A stretch of 7,726 bases of DNA from an uncultured Lachnospiraceae bacterium (GTDB lineage Bacteria > Bacillota_A > Clostridia > Lachnospirales > Lachnospiraceae), in NCBI GenBank assembly GCA_902767195.1, contig CACXGS010000266.1, positions 1 to 7,726 on the forward strand, in the 5' to 3' direction. The notes beneath the pieces are model-generated. The model was not told where the DNA came from. It saw only the letters and a list, made by a program, of their open reading frames with translations, and ran no database searches. A program made the translations under genes and the position numbers. This document shows positions 2,433-7,726 of the stretch, piece by piece. Within the stretch, counting starts at the first letter, position 1, and each line of letters opens with the position of its first letter.

Positions 2433-2475
2433 TGGGTAAAGACTTGGCGTTCCCTTTTCATTATGGAATTACTAC

Positions 2476-2481
2476 AGGAGG
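2476..2481 (+). promoter_or_regulatory. Ribosome binding site that fixes the HPr-like start
   Basis: A consensus AGGAGG lies 5 bases before the ATG at 2487. It lies downstream of an in-frame ATG at 2463, so the longer reading is unlikely. The 2487 start also puts Asp at position 15 and Ser at position 46, exactly the HPr numbering. Confidence 0.85.
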
Positions 2482-2486
2482 TTACT

Positions 2487-2744
2487 ATGGTATCGAGAGC
2501 AATGGAGATTAAGATTCCGACAGGACTGGATCCGAGCACAATCGCACTGTTTATTCAGATTGCAAGTCAGTATGAGAGCCGGGTATATGTTGAGGTGGAT
2601 AATAAGAGAGTGAATGCAAAGAGCCTGATGGGCATGATGACTCTCGGAGTCCCTCAGGGAGAAGAAGTCATGGTGATTGCAGATGGAATGGATGAGAGCC
2701 AGGCCATATCACATATTAACCAATATCTTTCGAATGAATCATAA
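2487..2744 (+). CDS. crh: HPr-family protein lacking His15, Crh-like (catabolite repression HPr)
   Basis: An 85-residue protein with the HPr fold pattern from end to end. HPr normally carries phosphate on His15 from enzyme I to sugar permeases. Here the active-site loop, usually GLHARPA, reads GLDPSTIA (13-20), so His15 is Asp and Arg17 is Ser. PTS phosphotransfer is therefore not expected. The second regulatory site is intact: VNAKSLMGMM (42-51) contains Ser46, the residue phosphorylated by HPr kinase/phosphatase, in its normal hydrophobic surround. This is the pattern of B. subtilis Crh (Gln15, Ser46), which when Ser-phosphorylated is a co-effector of CcpA. B. subtilis crh also lies right after whiA, so synteny supports the call. 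It follows whiA by 54 bases and ends at a strong terminator. The Crh role is inferred from these residues and position; other HPr-like proteins with a non-His residue 15 exist in Clostridia. Confidence 0.85.
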   Translation: MVSRAMEIKIPTGLDPSTIALFIQIASQYESRVYVEVDNKRVNAKSLMGMMTLGVPQGEEVMVIADGMDESQAISHINQYLSNES

Positions 2745-2761: not shown

Positions 2762-2803
2762 AATTCCCACTTTATACATAGCATATAAAGTGGGAATTTT
2801 TTA
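2762..2803. terminator. Strong, probably bidirectional terminator between convergent genes
   Basis: A perfect 15-bp stem (2762-2776 with 2784-2798, central GGGAA/TTCCC) closes the 7-base loop CATAGCA. On the plus strand it is followed by a run of Ts (up to 2802), so it ends the murB-whiA-crh unit. On the minus strand it begins just after the stop codon of the convergent membrane-protein gene, with a less pure T-rich tail. The plus-strand T run contains that gene's stop codon (TAA on the minus strand at 2801-2803). Confidence 0.9.
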
Positions 2804-3652
2804 TTTGATATAACGATCCAGGACGTCCTCAGGGATATCAATGCCGTAAAATCCACTGATCAGATTCCTGTCATAGTCTTTGACTCGCCAGTCTGTTATT
2901 TTATACCCGTCGAAGCCGTAGGTAATGGTTCCGACGGTTTTCTTTTTCTTTACTTTATCTTTGGAGTTCTCGTAGTATTCTTTCAGAACATCTGTCCAGT
3001 TGAGTTCCTCGGTGTCTTCTGTGTCCTCCTCATCCTGATTGCCGAACAGCTTCTTTATCGAGCGGAAAATTTTCTGCCATATGGGAGAAGAAGGATCTTT
3101 CATTTCTGACTGCATTTCCTCATAGAGAGAGGAAGGCAGCTGGGCAAAATCGAGATTACGCACCTCCACAGTCACTATGCACTGATTCCAGGAGGGAGAC
3201 ACATCCGTGATTCGATATTGAGCATCCTCAATGATCCAGTCGATCAGGGGATCAATATCGACCTTATCTGCGTCTATCAGAGCTCCCAGCTCGCTTTCTC
3301 TGATCCGGTTCCGGATCTCCTCTTCCAGAGTGTTTCTGATATTCGGGTTCTTCTGAAGAGATTCGGGGAGGTAAGCCGGATCGATGTCCGAGAAATCCAG
3401 GGTTTTAGCATGCTCGAAAATAGTATCTGTAGCACGTCTGCACTCGACCTCCACCTTATGGATATAAATGTAATATCCGAGAGTCGACATGATCAGCAGC
3501 AGGATGATTACCACCGGGGCAATCAGAACGACTTTGGGAAAGCGTCGGGTTTGGCGGGAAATCATACGAAATGGTGTATTCCCGGAAGGTGTCGGCCCTT
3601 CGGAACATAATAAATTGTTATTTTTATATTCTTTATTATATTGTAAAGACAT
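2801..3652 (-). CDS. Single-pass membrane protein with large extracytoplasmic domain, unknown function
   Basis: I do not recognise this 283-residue protein. Its N-terminal part (1-40) is polar and contains a basic cluster just before the membrane (RQTRRFPK, 33-40). One strongly hydrophobic helix follows at about 41-64, so the positive-inside rule places the rest outside the cell. The outer part has a helical, charged region (about 70-145) and a strand-like stretch around 155-170. An acidic run with repeated EDT (207-216) is followed by a Lys-rich patch (231-238) and a C-terminal strand-rich part. The layout of a helix followed by a curved sheet could be an NTF2-like or DUF-type extracytoplasmic domain, but this is only a guess. 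The ATG at 3652 is preferred: an AAGGGGGT sequence lies 8 bases upstream, while a GTG at 3700 would add 16 residues without a ribosome binding site. It is transcribed alone from its own promoter and ends at the shared terminator. Confidence 0.8.
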   Translation of the reverse strand: MSLQYNKEYKNNNLLCSEGPTPSGNTPFRMISRQTRRFPKVVLIAPVVIILLLIMSTLGYYIYIHKVEVECRRATDTIFEHAKTLDFSDIDPAYLPESLQKNPNIRNTLEEEIRNRIRESELGALIDADKVDIDPLIDWIIEDAQYRITDVSPSWNQCIVTVEVRNLDFAQLPSSLYEEMQSEMKDPSSPIWQKIFRSIKKLFGNQDEEDTEDTEELNWTDVLKEYYENSKDKVKKKKTVGTITYGFDGYKITDWRVKDYDRNLISGFYGIDIPEDVLDRYIK

Positions 3653-3660
3653 CTTAGCCC

Positions 3661-3668
3661 ACCCCCTT
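3661..3668 (-). promoter_or_regulatory. Ribosome binding site supporting the 3652 start
   Basis: On the minus strand AAGGGGGT lies 8 bases upstream of ATG 3652. It is one base off the AAGGAGGT consensus and is the only purine-rich site near either possible start. Confidence 0.6.
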
Positions 3669-3732
3669 GCAGATTCGATCTTCCATGAATGTGCAGGCAC
3701 ATCATGAACTATGACTTTCAGGCACTGATATC

Positions 3733-5082: not shown

Positions 5083-5111
5083 TTGACTTTCTCCCCCTGA
5101 AAATCTATAAT
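5083..5111 (+). promoter_or_regulatory. Near-consensus sigma-A promoter for the phosphatase/GlgB-like unit
   Basis: TTGACT (5083-5088, 5 of 6) and a perfect TATAAT (5106-5111) are separated by exactly 17 bases, beginning only 6 bases after the permease stop. This is the best promoter in the window. Transcription should start near 5118, giving a leader of about 75 bases before the phosphatase ATG. Confidence 0.85.
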
Positions 5112-5144: not shown

Positions 5145-5181
5145 TTCAAATAAGAATAGCGAGTGATTTTTGACATAACAC

Positions 5182-5187
5182 AGGAGG
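5182..5187 (+). promoter_or_regulatory. Ribosome binding site that fixes the phosphatase start
   Basis: AGGAGG lies 5 bases before ATG 5193. It falls inside a longer reading that would start at GTG 5163, which has no ribosome binding site of its own. Confidence 0.85.
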
Positions 5188-5192
5188 ATGCT

Positions 5193-6080
5193 ATGGTTTG
5201 CTGTTGTGGAAATGAATTGAATTTTGAAGGGATTAAAAATATCAGAGATTTAGGCGGAATCCGTACGGCGGACGGACATACTGTGCGAAGAGGTATGCTT
5301 TTTCGGAGCTCTCAGCTTTGCGATGCGACGCCGGAGGATATACGCAGGCTGAAAGAAGATTATCAGGTGAAGCTGGTGATCGATCTTCGTTCCAGAATGG
5401 AAAGAGAAAAGATGCCCAATACCTGTCTGCAGGGTATTCCGGAGATATGGAACCCTCTGTATTCCGAGGATATCAAGAAGCCGGAGATTTTCCGTCTGGA
5501 CTCATCCGATGTTCTCATGAACCGGCTGAAAGCTCTGTTTGCTCTTCACGCTGATGAGAGCGTGGCGGCAGCGGAAGCGGAGAAGGAGATTCGGGACATG
5601 CTGGCTGACAGAGAGATTGATCCGGATTATTATATGGGAAGGCTCTATCAGAAGTTCGTGAATAATCAGGTAGTACAGAAGCAGGTCAAACAGTTTTTCT
5701 CCATGCTGATTAATCAGAGAGGCGGAGCCATCCTCTATCACTGCGCAGCAGGTAAGGACCGGGTCGGAATTCTTTCGGCACTGCTTCTTTATGCCCTGGG
5801 CGTGTCCAGGGAGAAGATTGTTGAAGATTACATGGAAGGTGCCCAGTCCTCAGAGGACGCAGTGGCATTTCTCCTTGAGAGAATTTTCCCCGATACCATG
5901 CCGGATTATAAGGTTTACCGTGCTATGGCAGAAGTGTTCTTCAATACAAAGACCTGCTATATTGAGGCCTTTTTCGATGCTGTGGAGAGAGACTATGTCA
6001 GCATTGAGAATTATATGCAGAAGGCGCTGGAGGTGCGGGTGGATAACATTGTTCGCCTGAAAACACTGTACCTTGAGTAA
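5193..6080 (+). CDS. Tyrosine-protein phosphatase, Y_phosphatase3 / MptpB-like family
   Basis: A 295-residue Cys-based phosphatase. The catalytic P-loop is HCAAGKDR (183-190): nucleophile Cys184 and phosphate-binding Arg190 fit the HCX5R pattern. The Lys-Asp-Arg ending is typical of the bacterial MptpB/LipA branch (Pfam Y_phosphatase3), which acts on phosphotyrosine and often on phosphoinositides or other small phosphate esters. Other family marks are NIRDLGG (16-22) near the N-terminus, FRSSQL (37-42), and VIDLRS (62-67), whose Asp is expected to be the general acid. A helical insertion at about 105-145 is rich in Ala, Glu and Lys. There is no signal peptide or membrane segment, so it should be cytoplasmic. 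The N-terminus MVCCCG is unusually Cys-rich. The start is set by AGGAGG 5 bases upstream. It has its own strong promoter and is followed after 51 bases by a GlgB-like gene, so a glucan or sugar-phosphate substrate is possible, but this is inference. The true substrate is unknown. Confidence 0.88.
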   Translation: MVCCCGNELNFEGIKNIRDLGGIRTADGHTVRRGMLFRSSQLCDATPEDIRRLKEDYQVKLVIDLRSRMEREKMPNTCLQGIPEIWNPLYSEDIKKPEIFRLDSSDVLMNRLKALFALHADESVAAAEAEKEIRDMLADREIDPDYYMGRLYQKFVNNQVVQKQVKQFFSMLINQRGGAILYHCAAGKDRVGILSALLLYALGVSREKIVEDYMEGAQSSEDAVAFLLERIFPDTMPDYKVYRAMAEVFFNTKTCYIEAFFDAVERDYVSIENYMQKALEVRVDNIVRLKTLYLE

Positions 6081-6131: not shown

Positions 6132-7726
6132 ATGAGATTTGAGATCAGTGAAGTCATTAAGCAGGAAGCAGTTATGGAGCTGGTGTTCGGTAACTGTGAC
6201 AATCCCGGAAGAATGCTGGGAAGGCATATGGTTAAGAGTGGGCAGGTAATCTCTGCATTCCATCCCGATGCCCTGTCTATGGAGATTATTGACGGGGACG
6301 GGAACCACTATCCCATGGATCAGGTGGAACGCCAGCCGATGTTTGCGGTTTATCTTCCAAACAAACGGAGATTTCCCTATCAGATCCGAATGACTTTTGC
6401 AGACGGAAATACTTACACCAGCGAAGACCCCTACTCCATGGAGAGTCAGATTTCCGATAGTGAGATCCGCCTTTTCCATGAGGGGAACTGGAAGAATGCC
6501 TACCGCAAGATGGGAAGTCATCTTATGACAATCCAGGGTGTTTCCGGTGCATATTTTGTCCTTTGGGCTCCTATGGCCAGACGTGTCAGCGTGGTGGGAG
6601 ATTTCAATTACTGGAATGGTATGATCTATCCCATGCAGCGGATTGAGGACAGTGATCTTTTTGAGATTTTTATTCCGGGAGTTCAGGCCGGGCAGCTGTA
6701 TAAATATGAGATTAAGAACTGGCAGGGGGATATCTATCAGAAGAAAGATCCCTACGCAGTGATGAATGAGCAGCATGAGGACGGTGCTTCCGTGATTATG
6801 GACCTGGATCTCTTTCCCTGGGATGACGGCAGATGGCTGTCGTCCCGGAATATTCGGGATATTCACAGCAAGCCACTGGCTATCTGCGAGATGTATGAAC
6901 CGGAGCTCATGTTTCCTGAGGAACGGCTGCGGGAGATTGTCACTCAGATGGGCCTGTCCCATATTATCCTGAAAGGACGGCCCAGAGCCGAGAAGCCGGT
7001 ATCGGATGAGATCATGGGCATCGTGGACCGTGAGAAGGAAAAGACCCGTCATAAGGGATTCTTCGAACCCATGTACAGCAGAGACGGTCCGGACCGCACC
7101 CGGTTATTTGTTAATGAGTGTCACAAAAACAACAAGGCAGTGCTGACGGAATTCGCCAGTGATCATATTCAGAAAGCATTTGATTATATCCTGGAGTTTG
7201 CGGATCTGATGCCTGAGGGCACTTCGGAAGGATTGACCAGACTGATTGAGGAGACAGGGTATACATACCTGTTTTACCGGTCTCCGGAACTCTTCAATTA
7301 CCTGCTTTCCAATCTGATCTTCTGGATCAGGAAGTACCATATCGACGGGTTCGTGTTCCGCGGTTTTCATGATAAGCTGGCAACTATGTGTGCTTCTCCG
7401 GAGTTTGAAGATATCAGTAATAAGGACTGGATCAGTCTGGTGCAGCGTCATTATGATCTGACAAAATCCCTGATGGCGGCTGCCAGAGAGGTGGACCCAG
7501 GGGTTCTGTTTATCGGTGAGAGTATAGGAAGGGAAGATCTTTTCCGCCATTGCTCCTGGGTTCGTGATTTGAATAAGCCTGATTATGATATTCACTGGGA
7601 TTATTCGGTGAAGAAGTCCCTGGTACGGTATCTGGGCATGGATCCTGCGGAAAGAAAGAGGAATCACTATCTTCTGTCTCTCCCCGTCATGAGGATGGAT
7701 GACCGGGATACGGTGATCCGGCTGAA
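6132..7726 (+). CDS. GlgB-like protein with degenerate GH13 active site, probable pseudoenzyme (3' end outside window)
   Basis: The frame runs open from ATG 6132 (AGGGAG 8 bases upstream) to the window edge, 531 codons without a stop. It has the layout of glycogen branching enzyme: an N-terminal N1 domain (about 20-110, DPYSMESQIS near its end), a CBM48 glucan-binding domain (about 139-215, VLWAPMARRVSVVGDFNYW), and a GH13-type barrel. GlgB normally cuts alpha-1,4-glucan and rejoins it by an alpha-1,6 bond. Here the second conserved region reads DGFVFRGF (405-412) where GlgB has DGLRVDAV, so the nucleophile Asp is Arg410 and the preceding Arg is Val. Region I has Glu340 in place of Asp (LTEFASDH). 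The GSWGYQVTGY segment is replaced by unrelated charged residues before GFFEP. The general-acid Glu463 (FIGES) is kept, 53 residues after Arg410, the same spacing as Asp405 to Glu458 in E. coli GlgB. The third catalytic Asp would lie just past the edge. It follows the phosphatase gene by 51 bases and is probably co-transcribed. Branching activity is not expected; a glucan-binding or regulatory role is inferred. Confidence 0.85.
   Translation, partial: MRFEISEVIKQEAVMELVFGNCDNPGRMLGRHMVKSGQVISAFHPDALSMEIIDGDGNHYPMDQVERQPMFAVYLPNKRRFPYQIRMTFADGNTYTSEDPYSMESQISDSEIRLFHEGNWKNAYRKMGSHLMTIQGVSGAYFVLWAPMARRVSVVGDFNYWNGMIYPMQRIEDSDLFEIFIPGVQAGQLYKYEIKNWQGDIYQKKDPYAVMNEQHEDGASVIMDLDLFPWDDGRWLSSRNIRDIHSKPLAICEMYEPELMFPEERLREIVTQMGLSHIILKGRPRAEKPVSDEIMGIVDREKEKTRHKGFFEPMYSRDGPDRTRLFVNECHKNNKAVLTEFASDHIQKAFDYILEFADLMPEGTSEGLTRLIEETGYTYLFYRSPELFNYLLSNLIFWIRKYHIDGFVFRGFHDKLATMCASPEFEDISNKDWISLVQRHYDLTKSLMAAAREVDPGVLFIGESIGREDLFRHCSWVRDLNKPDYDIHWDYSVKKSLVRYLGMDPAERKRNHYLLSLPVMRMDDRDTVIRL

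Follow-up and report, generated by a model that had tools for sequence, protein, structure and literature searches.

The 7,726-nucleotide stretch of DNA analyzed here (the window), from an uncultured Lachnospiraceae bacterium, ends within a gene for a GlgB-like protein whose active site has been dismantled, and which is almost certainly not a branching enzyme. We call it a pseudoenzyme because its catalytic residues are lost lineage-wide under continuing purifying selection. Our preferred reading, to which we give a probability of roughly 0.6, is that it is a glycogen-binding pseudoenzyme acting as a scaffold or regulator, by analogy with plant ISA2.

Domain architecture of the window protein

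The N-terminal 531 residues of the pseudoenzyme are encoded at 6132..7724 on the + strand, an assignment that rests on the open reading frame, Pfam matches, homologues and clade membership. The frame begins with ATG, 8 bases after a ribosome-site-like AGGGAG, and is still open after 531 codons where the window ends, in agreement with the intact frame and ribosome binding site reported in the preliminary description. An N1 domain (GlgB_N, PF22019; residues 11-101; 6162..6434, +; Pfam E 2.3e-25) is followed by a CBM48 (residues 127-209; 6510..6758, +; Pfam E 7.3e-23), which contains the invariant Trp161. Both had been described earlier as well conserved; their mean pairwise identities in the pseudoenzyme are 57% and 53%. 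From about residue 246, a degenerate GH13 barrel (6867..7724, +; 35% mean identity) continues to the end of the window, and no Pfam match to the alpha-amylase catalytic domain (PF00128) was found in the 531-residue window protein. Against the NCBIfam branching enzyme model TIGR01515, the protein scores 213.7 bits versus a cut-off of 463.95, a score lowered by the missing C-terminus of the query.

The homologues closest to the window protein are 65-69% identical and 705-706 amino acids long, full-length relatives range from about 634 to 724 amino acids, and the family has the GlgB arrangement of N1, CBM48, barrel and domain C. Database names for these proteins vary between 1,4-alpha-glucan branching enzyme and GlgB N-terminal domain only; since some sources label the pseudoenzymes branching enzyme, genome counts of GlgB may be inflated.

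Loss of catalytic residues across the family

Alignment to E. coli K-12 GlgB places Glu340 (7149..7151, +) at the region I Asp335, Val408 at the region II Arg403, and Arg410 (7359..7361, +), in the segment HIDGFVFRGF, at the nucleophile Asp405. The WGYQ signature is absent from the window protein, and its Trp is lost in 22 of 22 pseudoenzyme rows. The dismantled active site that had been proposed from the sequence (Arg410, Glu340, loss of WGYQ) is thereby confirmed. Glu463 (7518..7520, +) aligns with the acid/base residue Glu458, and its spacing of 53 residues from Arg410 is that of D405 and E458 in E. coli GlgB; the earlier statement that it is retained at the exact E. coli spacing therefore holds for the window protein but does not describe a family trait, Glu being present in 5 of 22 rows.

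The 22 rows, given here in E. coli GlgB numbering, are those of the window and of 21 genomes; as the window stops short of region IV (HDE), counts for His525 and Asp526 cover the 21 other rows. Neither Asp335 (Glu in 18, Gln in 3, Ala in 1) nor Arg403 is kept in any row, and His340 is kept in one, namely the window. The nucleophile Asp405 survives in three rows, the remainder having Arg (6), Glu (6), Gly (3), Lys (2), His (1) or Leu (1), and Glu458 survives in five, with Asp in 16 and Asn in 1. His525 and Asp526 are each kept in 4 of 21 rows and both together in none. No row keeps more than two of the seven catalytic residues, and the full triad is present in none, while H326, H398 and D400 (E. 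coli numbering) are kept in all. Eleven further pseudoenzyme proteins, hand-picked from 219 homologue ids and in part close to the 22 rows, agree with this pattern (Asp405 kept in 1, Glu458 in 4).

An Arg shared by homologues at the nucleophile place, one of the questions raised beforehand, was found in only 6 of 22 rows, the site being variously R, E, G, D, K, H or L. The relatives were also checked for the normal RVDAV and HDE motifs, which had been named in advance as refuting; none of the 22 rows has the region I Asp, the region II Arg or the triad. Decay in one strain or a sequencing error can be ruled out, with the gene found in 21 of 24 genus genomes and with all 21 other rows lacking both the region I Asp and the region II Arg.

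Distribution and single origin

The pseudoenzyme gene occupies the same chromosomal place in 21 of the 24 genomes of the genus containing Anaerobutyricum hallii DSM 3353. A profile of the degenerate barrel and C-terminus, built from ten sequences (A2), matched 20 of the 24 at E 1e-80 or better, and the copy in G406 reached E 9.8e-79 with this profile and 5.9e-151 with a full-length model. Profile searches found no copy in the genus genomes G410, G411 and G415; as genome completeness is not given, these absences may partly be assembly gaps. The lack of a copy in 3 of 24 genomes, with the neighboring genes adjacent in G411, also suggests that the gene is dispensable in places. A separate locus search returned five Lachnospiraceae/Eubacteriales loci encoding the pseudoenzyme, among them that of A. 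hallii DSM 3353 (8001-9905 of locus L002); the remaining 46 loci of this search were mostly cyanobacterial, with true GlgBs among them.

A wider spread of the trait across Clostridia, asked about beforehand, was not found: among the matches listed from 397 family and 391 class genomes, it was found in one genus only. In the family sample, 374 of the 397 genomes matched A2 at E 1e-30, a level that true GlgBs also reach, and among the matches listed only two genus members, G002 and G324, exceeded 264.2 bits; in the class sample, only G002 passed E 1e-79 among the matches listed. The G406 copy, at 264.8 bits, is level with the best non-genus row, and at this level a copy just as divergent could go unnoticed in other genera. 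Scoring covered at most four candidates per genome, and motifs were read in a subset of the rows, covering 27 of 29 loci in one set and 24 rows in another.

In a quick tree of 57 rows, built without the G403 copy that a contig end cuts, the 21 pseudoenzyme rows form one side of a branch with an SH-aLRT of 100. A careful tree of 33 of these rows, 14 of them pseudoenzymes, gives a pseudoenzyme clade with support 100/100, recovered in 100% of 200 bootstrap trees. The clade stands apart from both true GlgB groups, and a recent duplication of the genus' own GlgB is accordingly rejected. The best matches of the pseudoenzyme are branching-enzyme models and structures, and the trees contained no GH13_11 rows. 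As judged from sequence, the pseudoenzyme is genus-wide and descended from a GH13_9 glycogen branching enzyme.

GlgB and GlgA in the same genomes

A true-GlgB model matches 23 of the 24 genus genomes (E 1e-60), which do not include the window's source genome; the exception is G403, where the absence may partly reflect an assembly gap. Thirty true GlgB copies were recovered of 45 matches listed, namely the best copy of 23 genomes and seven second copies; the true GlgBs of A. hallii DSM 3353 are those of loci L161 and L184. All 30 keep the first five catalytic places, and 29 of 29 keep His525 and Asp526. The question of whether each genome has a true glgB besides is thus answered positively by the model for 23 of 24 genomes, with motifs intact at the covered places, and by motif the GlgBs encoded elsewhere in these genomes are active-looking. 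GlgA scored above the cut-off in 23 of 24, all but G416. Anaerobutyricum are described as butyrate producers widely distributed in human and animal guts, with glycogen and starch use predicted in all strains examined in that source (PMC13303155).

Among 24 rows of GlgBs belonging to the family or to Cyanobacteria/Chloroflexi, the nucleophile is lost in one, L099 (62-2473; G031:C43, same family). This is a GlgB with N1 in which the nucleophile Asp is Asn (RLNGIA) and HDE is kept; it falls among the true GlgBs in both trees and hence looks like an independent loss.

Selection and domain conservation

Over the whole pseudoenzyme, NG86 dN/dS is 0.082 for G002/G324, 0.079 for G003/G005, 0.053 for G416/G418, 0.108 for G408/G417 and 0.132 for G419/G417, ratios being available from five of six pairs with dS saturated in the pair of the window and G001. 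These values (0.053-0.132 in 5 pairs) uphold the earlier view that the gene is not a decaying pseudogene. For true GlgB, the ratios are 0.037 and 0.040 (G002/G324) and 0.019 (G408/G417), such that constraint on the pseudoenzyme appears strong but weaker than on the enzymes. From residue 246 to the end, dN/dS is 0.06-0.16, and a ratio this low in the barrel suggests that the barrel still does something.

Domain conservation is inverted relative to the true enzymes, with the barrel being the best conserved domain in true GlgB and the worst conserved in the pseudoenzyme. Mean pairwise identity in the pseudoenzyme is 57% for N1, 53% for CBM48, 35% for the barrel and 49% for domain C, compared with 66.5% for CBM48, 88% for the barrel and 83% for domain C in true GlgB of the same genomes, as calculated for the 16 of 21 genomes from which both proteins were recovered, with one true GlgB each. 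For columns constant in true GlgBs (at least 95%, L099 left out; no N1 column qualified), retention in the pseudoenzyme rows is 79% across the 22 such columns of CBM48, 27% across the 106 of the barrel and 91% across the five of domain C. The catalytic places, kept at 0-23%, fare little worse than the other barrel columns at 28%, which indicates that the whole barrel has drifted and not the active site alone.

In G004 (8001-10006 of locus L004), the C-terminal frame is broken, the open reading frame ending at 9917 and similarity continuing to 10006; this reflects either decay or an assembly error. In the remaining 20 genomes, the frame is uninterrupted over the length that the contigs cover.

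Glucan-contact sites and fold

Table 1 of PMC10254366 lists twelve glucan sites of the E. coli branching enzyme. The Trp of site IV in CBM48 (E. coli Trp159, window Trp161) is kept in 21 of 21 pseudoenzyme rows covering the place, and the Trp of site VI in domain C (E. coli Trp628) in 19 of 21, the other two having Phe. Site I Trp586, kept in 29 of 29 true GlgBs of the genus, and site VII Trp262 both fall in gaps in 22 of 22 pseudoenzyme rows, and the site XII Phe is kept in one. The other sites are mostly lost in the pseudoenzyme rows, and apart from site XII, most are lost in the true GlgBs of the genus too. Because true GlgBs also keep the CBM48 Trp, it may be retained for folding.

In an AlphaFold2 model of L001, a relative 66% identical to the window protein, the branching-enzyme fold is kept. 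The proposal in the preliminary description that fold and glucan binding had been kept while chemistry was removed can be maintained in part: the fold, as modeled for the relative, and the two glucan-contact Trp residues speak for it, but the drift extends to the whole barrel.

The locus and its neighboring genes

In every one of the 20 loci with sequence on the downstream side, a HIT gene comes next after the pseudoenzyme, followed by a flavin reductase-like gene, murA and, where the contig allows, metK (neighbor names here were recognized from sequence, apart from those backed by Pfam). Directly upstream in the window is a gene of the tyrosine phosphatase family (Y_phosphatase3, HCAAGKDR; 5163..6080, +; Pfam E 1.3e-57), separated from the pseudoenzyme by 51 bases in which a scan found no terminator-like site. 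A promoter-like site, TTGACT-17-TATAAT (5083..5111, +; 11 of 12 consensus matches), precedes the phosphatase gene and is putative, the 1.4 kb scanned holding five sites of this kind where 1.9 are expected.

Among the 19 loci whose upstream sequence is available, 13 have the phosphatase gene immediately before the pseudoenzyme; it is whole in 12 of them and only a fragment in G409 (L148, 7664-7915). A strong orthologue (E below 1e-50) occurs in 16 of the 24 genus genomes. None was found in G002, G324 and G407, which have the pseudoenzyme, nor in G001, G402 and G403, where the contig ends just upstream of the pseudoenzyme; in G003, G004 and G005, the phosphatase is located elsewhere, and G410 and G411 have it without the pseudoenzyme. 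In G411 (L212, 2308-3715), the phosphatase and HIT genes are adjacent with the pseudoenzyme missing between them, which represents either loss or a lineage that never had the gene. Obligate pairing is rejected as a general rule by G002, G324 and G407, leaving the phosphatase gene as a possible, not obligate, partner. Only two solved sequences match the phosphatase, 8dhi (named by its Tyr_phosphatase_2 domain) and the phosphotyrosine phosphatase PtpB. Glucan phosphatases carry the signature CxAGxGR, which here reads CxAGKDR.

Elsewhere in the window, 2463-2744 (+), beside whiA, encodes an HPr-like protein (Pfam PTS-HPr) with GLDPSTI at the place of the HPr phospho-His motif GLHARPA; the Ser46 region NAKSLMGMM is kept, and by these motifs the product is a Crh-like HPr. 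Relatives occur in five loci (gene cluster 16), the one inspected having the same letters. The protein encoded at 2801-3700 (-) has no Pfam match and contains a hydrophobic stretch; its relatives occur in four loci including the window, and one that was inspected starts with a zinc-ribbon-like CPNC...CPEC. Within 473-2432, the frames of murB and whiA share 35 bases when 1455 is taken as the whiA start. A RapZ-like gene, recognized by eye between murB and whiA in locus L005, is absent from the window.

Discussion

If the protein is indeed a glycogen-binding scaffold or regulator, it would bind alpha-glucan (glycogen) via CBM48 and domain C and be unable to cut or transfer chains. As a non-catalytic subunit associated with glycogen, it could position or tune GlgB, GlgA and perhaps phosphorylase on the particle, as ISA2 does with ISA1. 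The barrel might by now be a spacer or protein-docking body with the former pocket free to vary, although "free to vary" does not describe its low dN/dS. More tentatively, we suggest a bacterial, GlgB-derived counterpart of ISA2 that binds glycogen and organizes active GlgB/GlgA or the neighboring phosphatase on the particle, thereby shaping glycogen; if so, a dead enzyme would help to set how glycogen is branched, or how large its particles are, in a genus of gut commensals.

Several other explanations bear on the same evidence. The pseudoenzyme could be a targeting subunit that brings the neighboring tyrosine/dual-specificity phosphatase to glycogen, in a two-gene counterpart of SEX4 or laforin. 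The phosphatase gene directly upstream in 13 of 19 loci, its HCAAGKDR motif and, in the window, the 51-base gap with a promoter-like site ahead and no terminator-like site between would all be consistent with this. We nevertheless regard it as unlikely, since the two genes do not always go together: a strong orthologue is missing from G002, G324 and G407, and from G001, G402 and G403 with their contigs ending just upstream; the gene lies elsewhere in G003-G005, is a fragment in G409, and persists in G410 and G411 where the pseudoenzyme does not. The signature CxAGKDR and matches confined to 8dhi and PtpB among solved sequences also count against it. A remodeled barrel that has gained another activity through its substitutes, such as the region I Glu and the retained HxDG and His, is similarly improbable. 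Glu at the region I place in 18 of the 22 rows, H326, H398 and D400 in all rows and low dN/dS from residue 246 onward would suit a new enzyme, but HxDG is shared with true GlgB and is thus probably structural, and the charge at the remaining former catalytic places differs from row to row. Moreover, in a comparison of the columns shared with true GlgB, just three residues, E111, W120 and P519 (L001 numbering), pass the cut-offs for being invariant here yet uncommon in the true enzymes; two lie between N1 and CBM48, and none forms a new acidic pair in the barrel.

The gaps at sites I and VII in 22 of 22 rows, the site XII Phe in a single row and a location beside fru and murA/metK genes, which gives no link to glycogen, would be expected of a protein-interaction or structural factor that has lost glucan binding altogether. 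This we consider quite unlikely in view of the constant columns kept in CBM48 (79%) and domain C (91%, 5 columns) and of the site IV Trp found in every row covering the place. That the gene is a neutral relic heading for loss is highly improbable. Three of 24 genomes yielded no copy, the neighbors being adjacent in G411, the C-terminal frame is broken in G004, and dN/dS amounts to two to six times the true-GlgB value in both pairs compared; against this, the frame is open in the other 20 genomes as far as contigs extend, dN/dS is well below 1 in all five pairs with a ratio, and the location is stable. We give equally little credence to a still active branching enzyme using other residues. Branching-enzyme models do match (213.7 bits with TIGR01515) and the fold is retained in the model, yet the score is less than half the cut-off of 463.95, albeit for a query without its C-terminus, and region I Asp, region II Arg and the WGYQ Trp are lost in 22 of 22 rows and the nucleophile in 19.

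Among known proteins, those nearest to the pseudoenzyme include the GH13_9 bacterial GlgBs with N1 (Cyanothece BE1, Mycobacterium 3k1d, V. vulnificus 9u77), from which it differs in the loss of catalytic residues and WGYQ, in giving no PF00128 match and in scoring below branching-enzyme cut-offs. The SLC3 heavy chains 4F2hc and rBAT, subunits of animal membrane transporters, likewise have non-enzymatic GH13-like folds, without CBM48. Laforin combines a phosphatase and a glucan-binding module in a single chain. SEX4 has the same combination, again within one chain (PMC6243121). The arrangement described here resembles both in that a phosphatase gene adjoins a CBM48 gene in 13 of 19 loci, and differs in its two separate chains, its other phosphatase signature and a linkage that is not constant.

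An inactive bacterial branching-enzyme unit, as found here, is described in PMC11046441 as part of a chlamydial GlgA-GlgB fusion in Waddliaceae and a related family. That fusion sits in a defective GlgC-GlgA pathway, whereas the pseudoenzyme stands alone as a protein, in genomes that also encode active-looking GlgB and GlgA. ISA2 (GH13_11) is described in PMC12510319 as a catalytically dead GH13 paralogue that serves as the non-catalytic partner of ISA1, has been retained through plant evolution and affects polymer form. It is likewise a faster-evolving CBM48 GH13 paralogue that has lost its catalytic residues across the lineage, is under selection beside an active paralogue and has an N-terminal beta-sandwich ahead of CBM48 (PMC12510319). 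ISA2 differs in belonging to a debranching lineage and to plants, and the N1 here is common to active GlgBs and not new. We propose that the pseudoenzyme may work like ISA2, not that it is ISA2, and a complex with the active paralogue would be expected by this analogy.

An open-access literature search, mostly at listing level, found no paper on a stand-alone bacterial GlgB pseudoenzyme. GH13 pseudoenzymes as such are already known, from ISA2 and the chlamydial GlgB domain (PMC11046441), and the stand-alone bacterial GlgB case is, as far as these sources go, the new part. Non-catalytic control of alpha-glucan structure is known from plants through ISA2, and a bacterial counterpart present in a named type strain would allow a direct test of how a catalytically dead GH13 protein affects a glucan.
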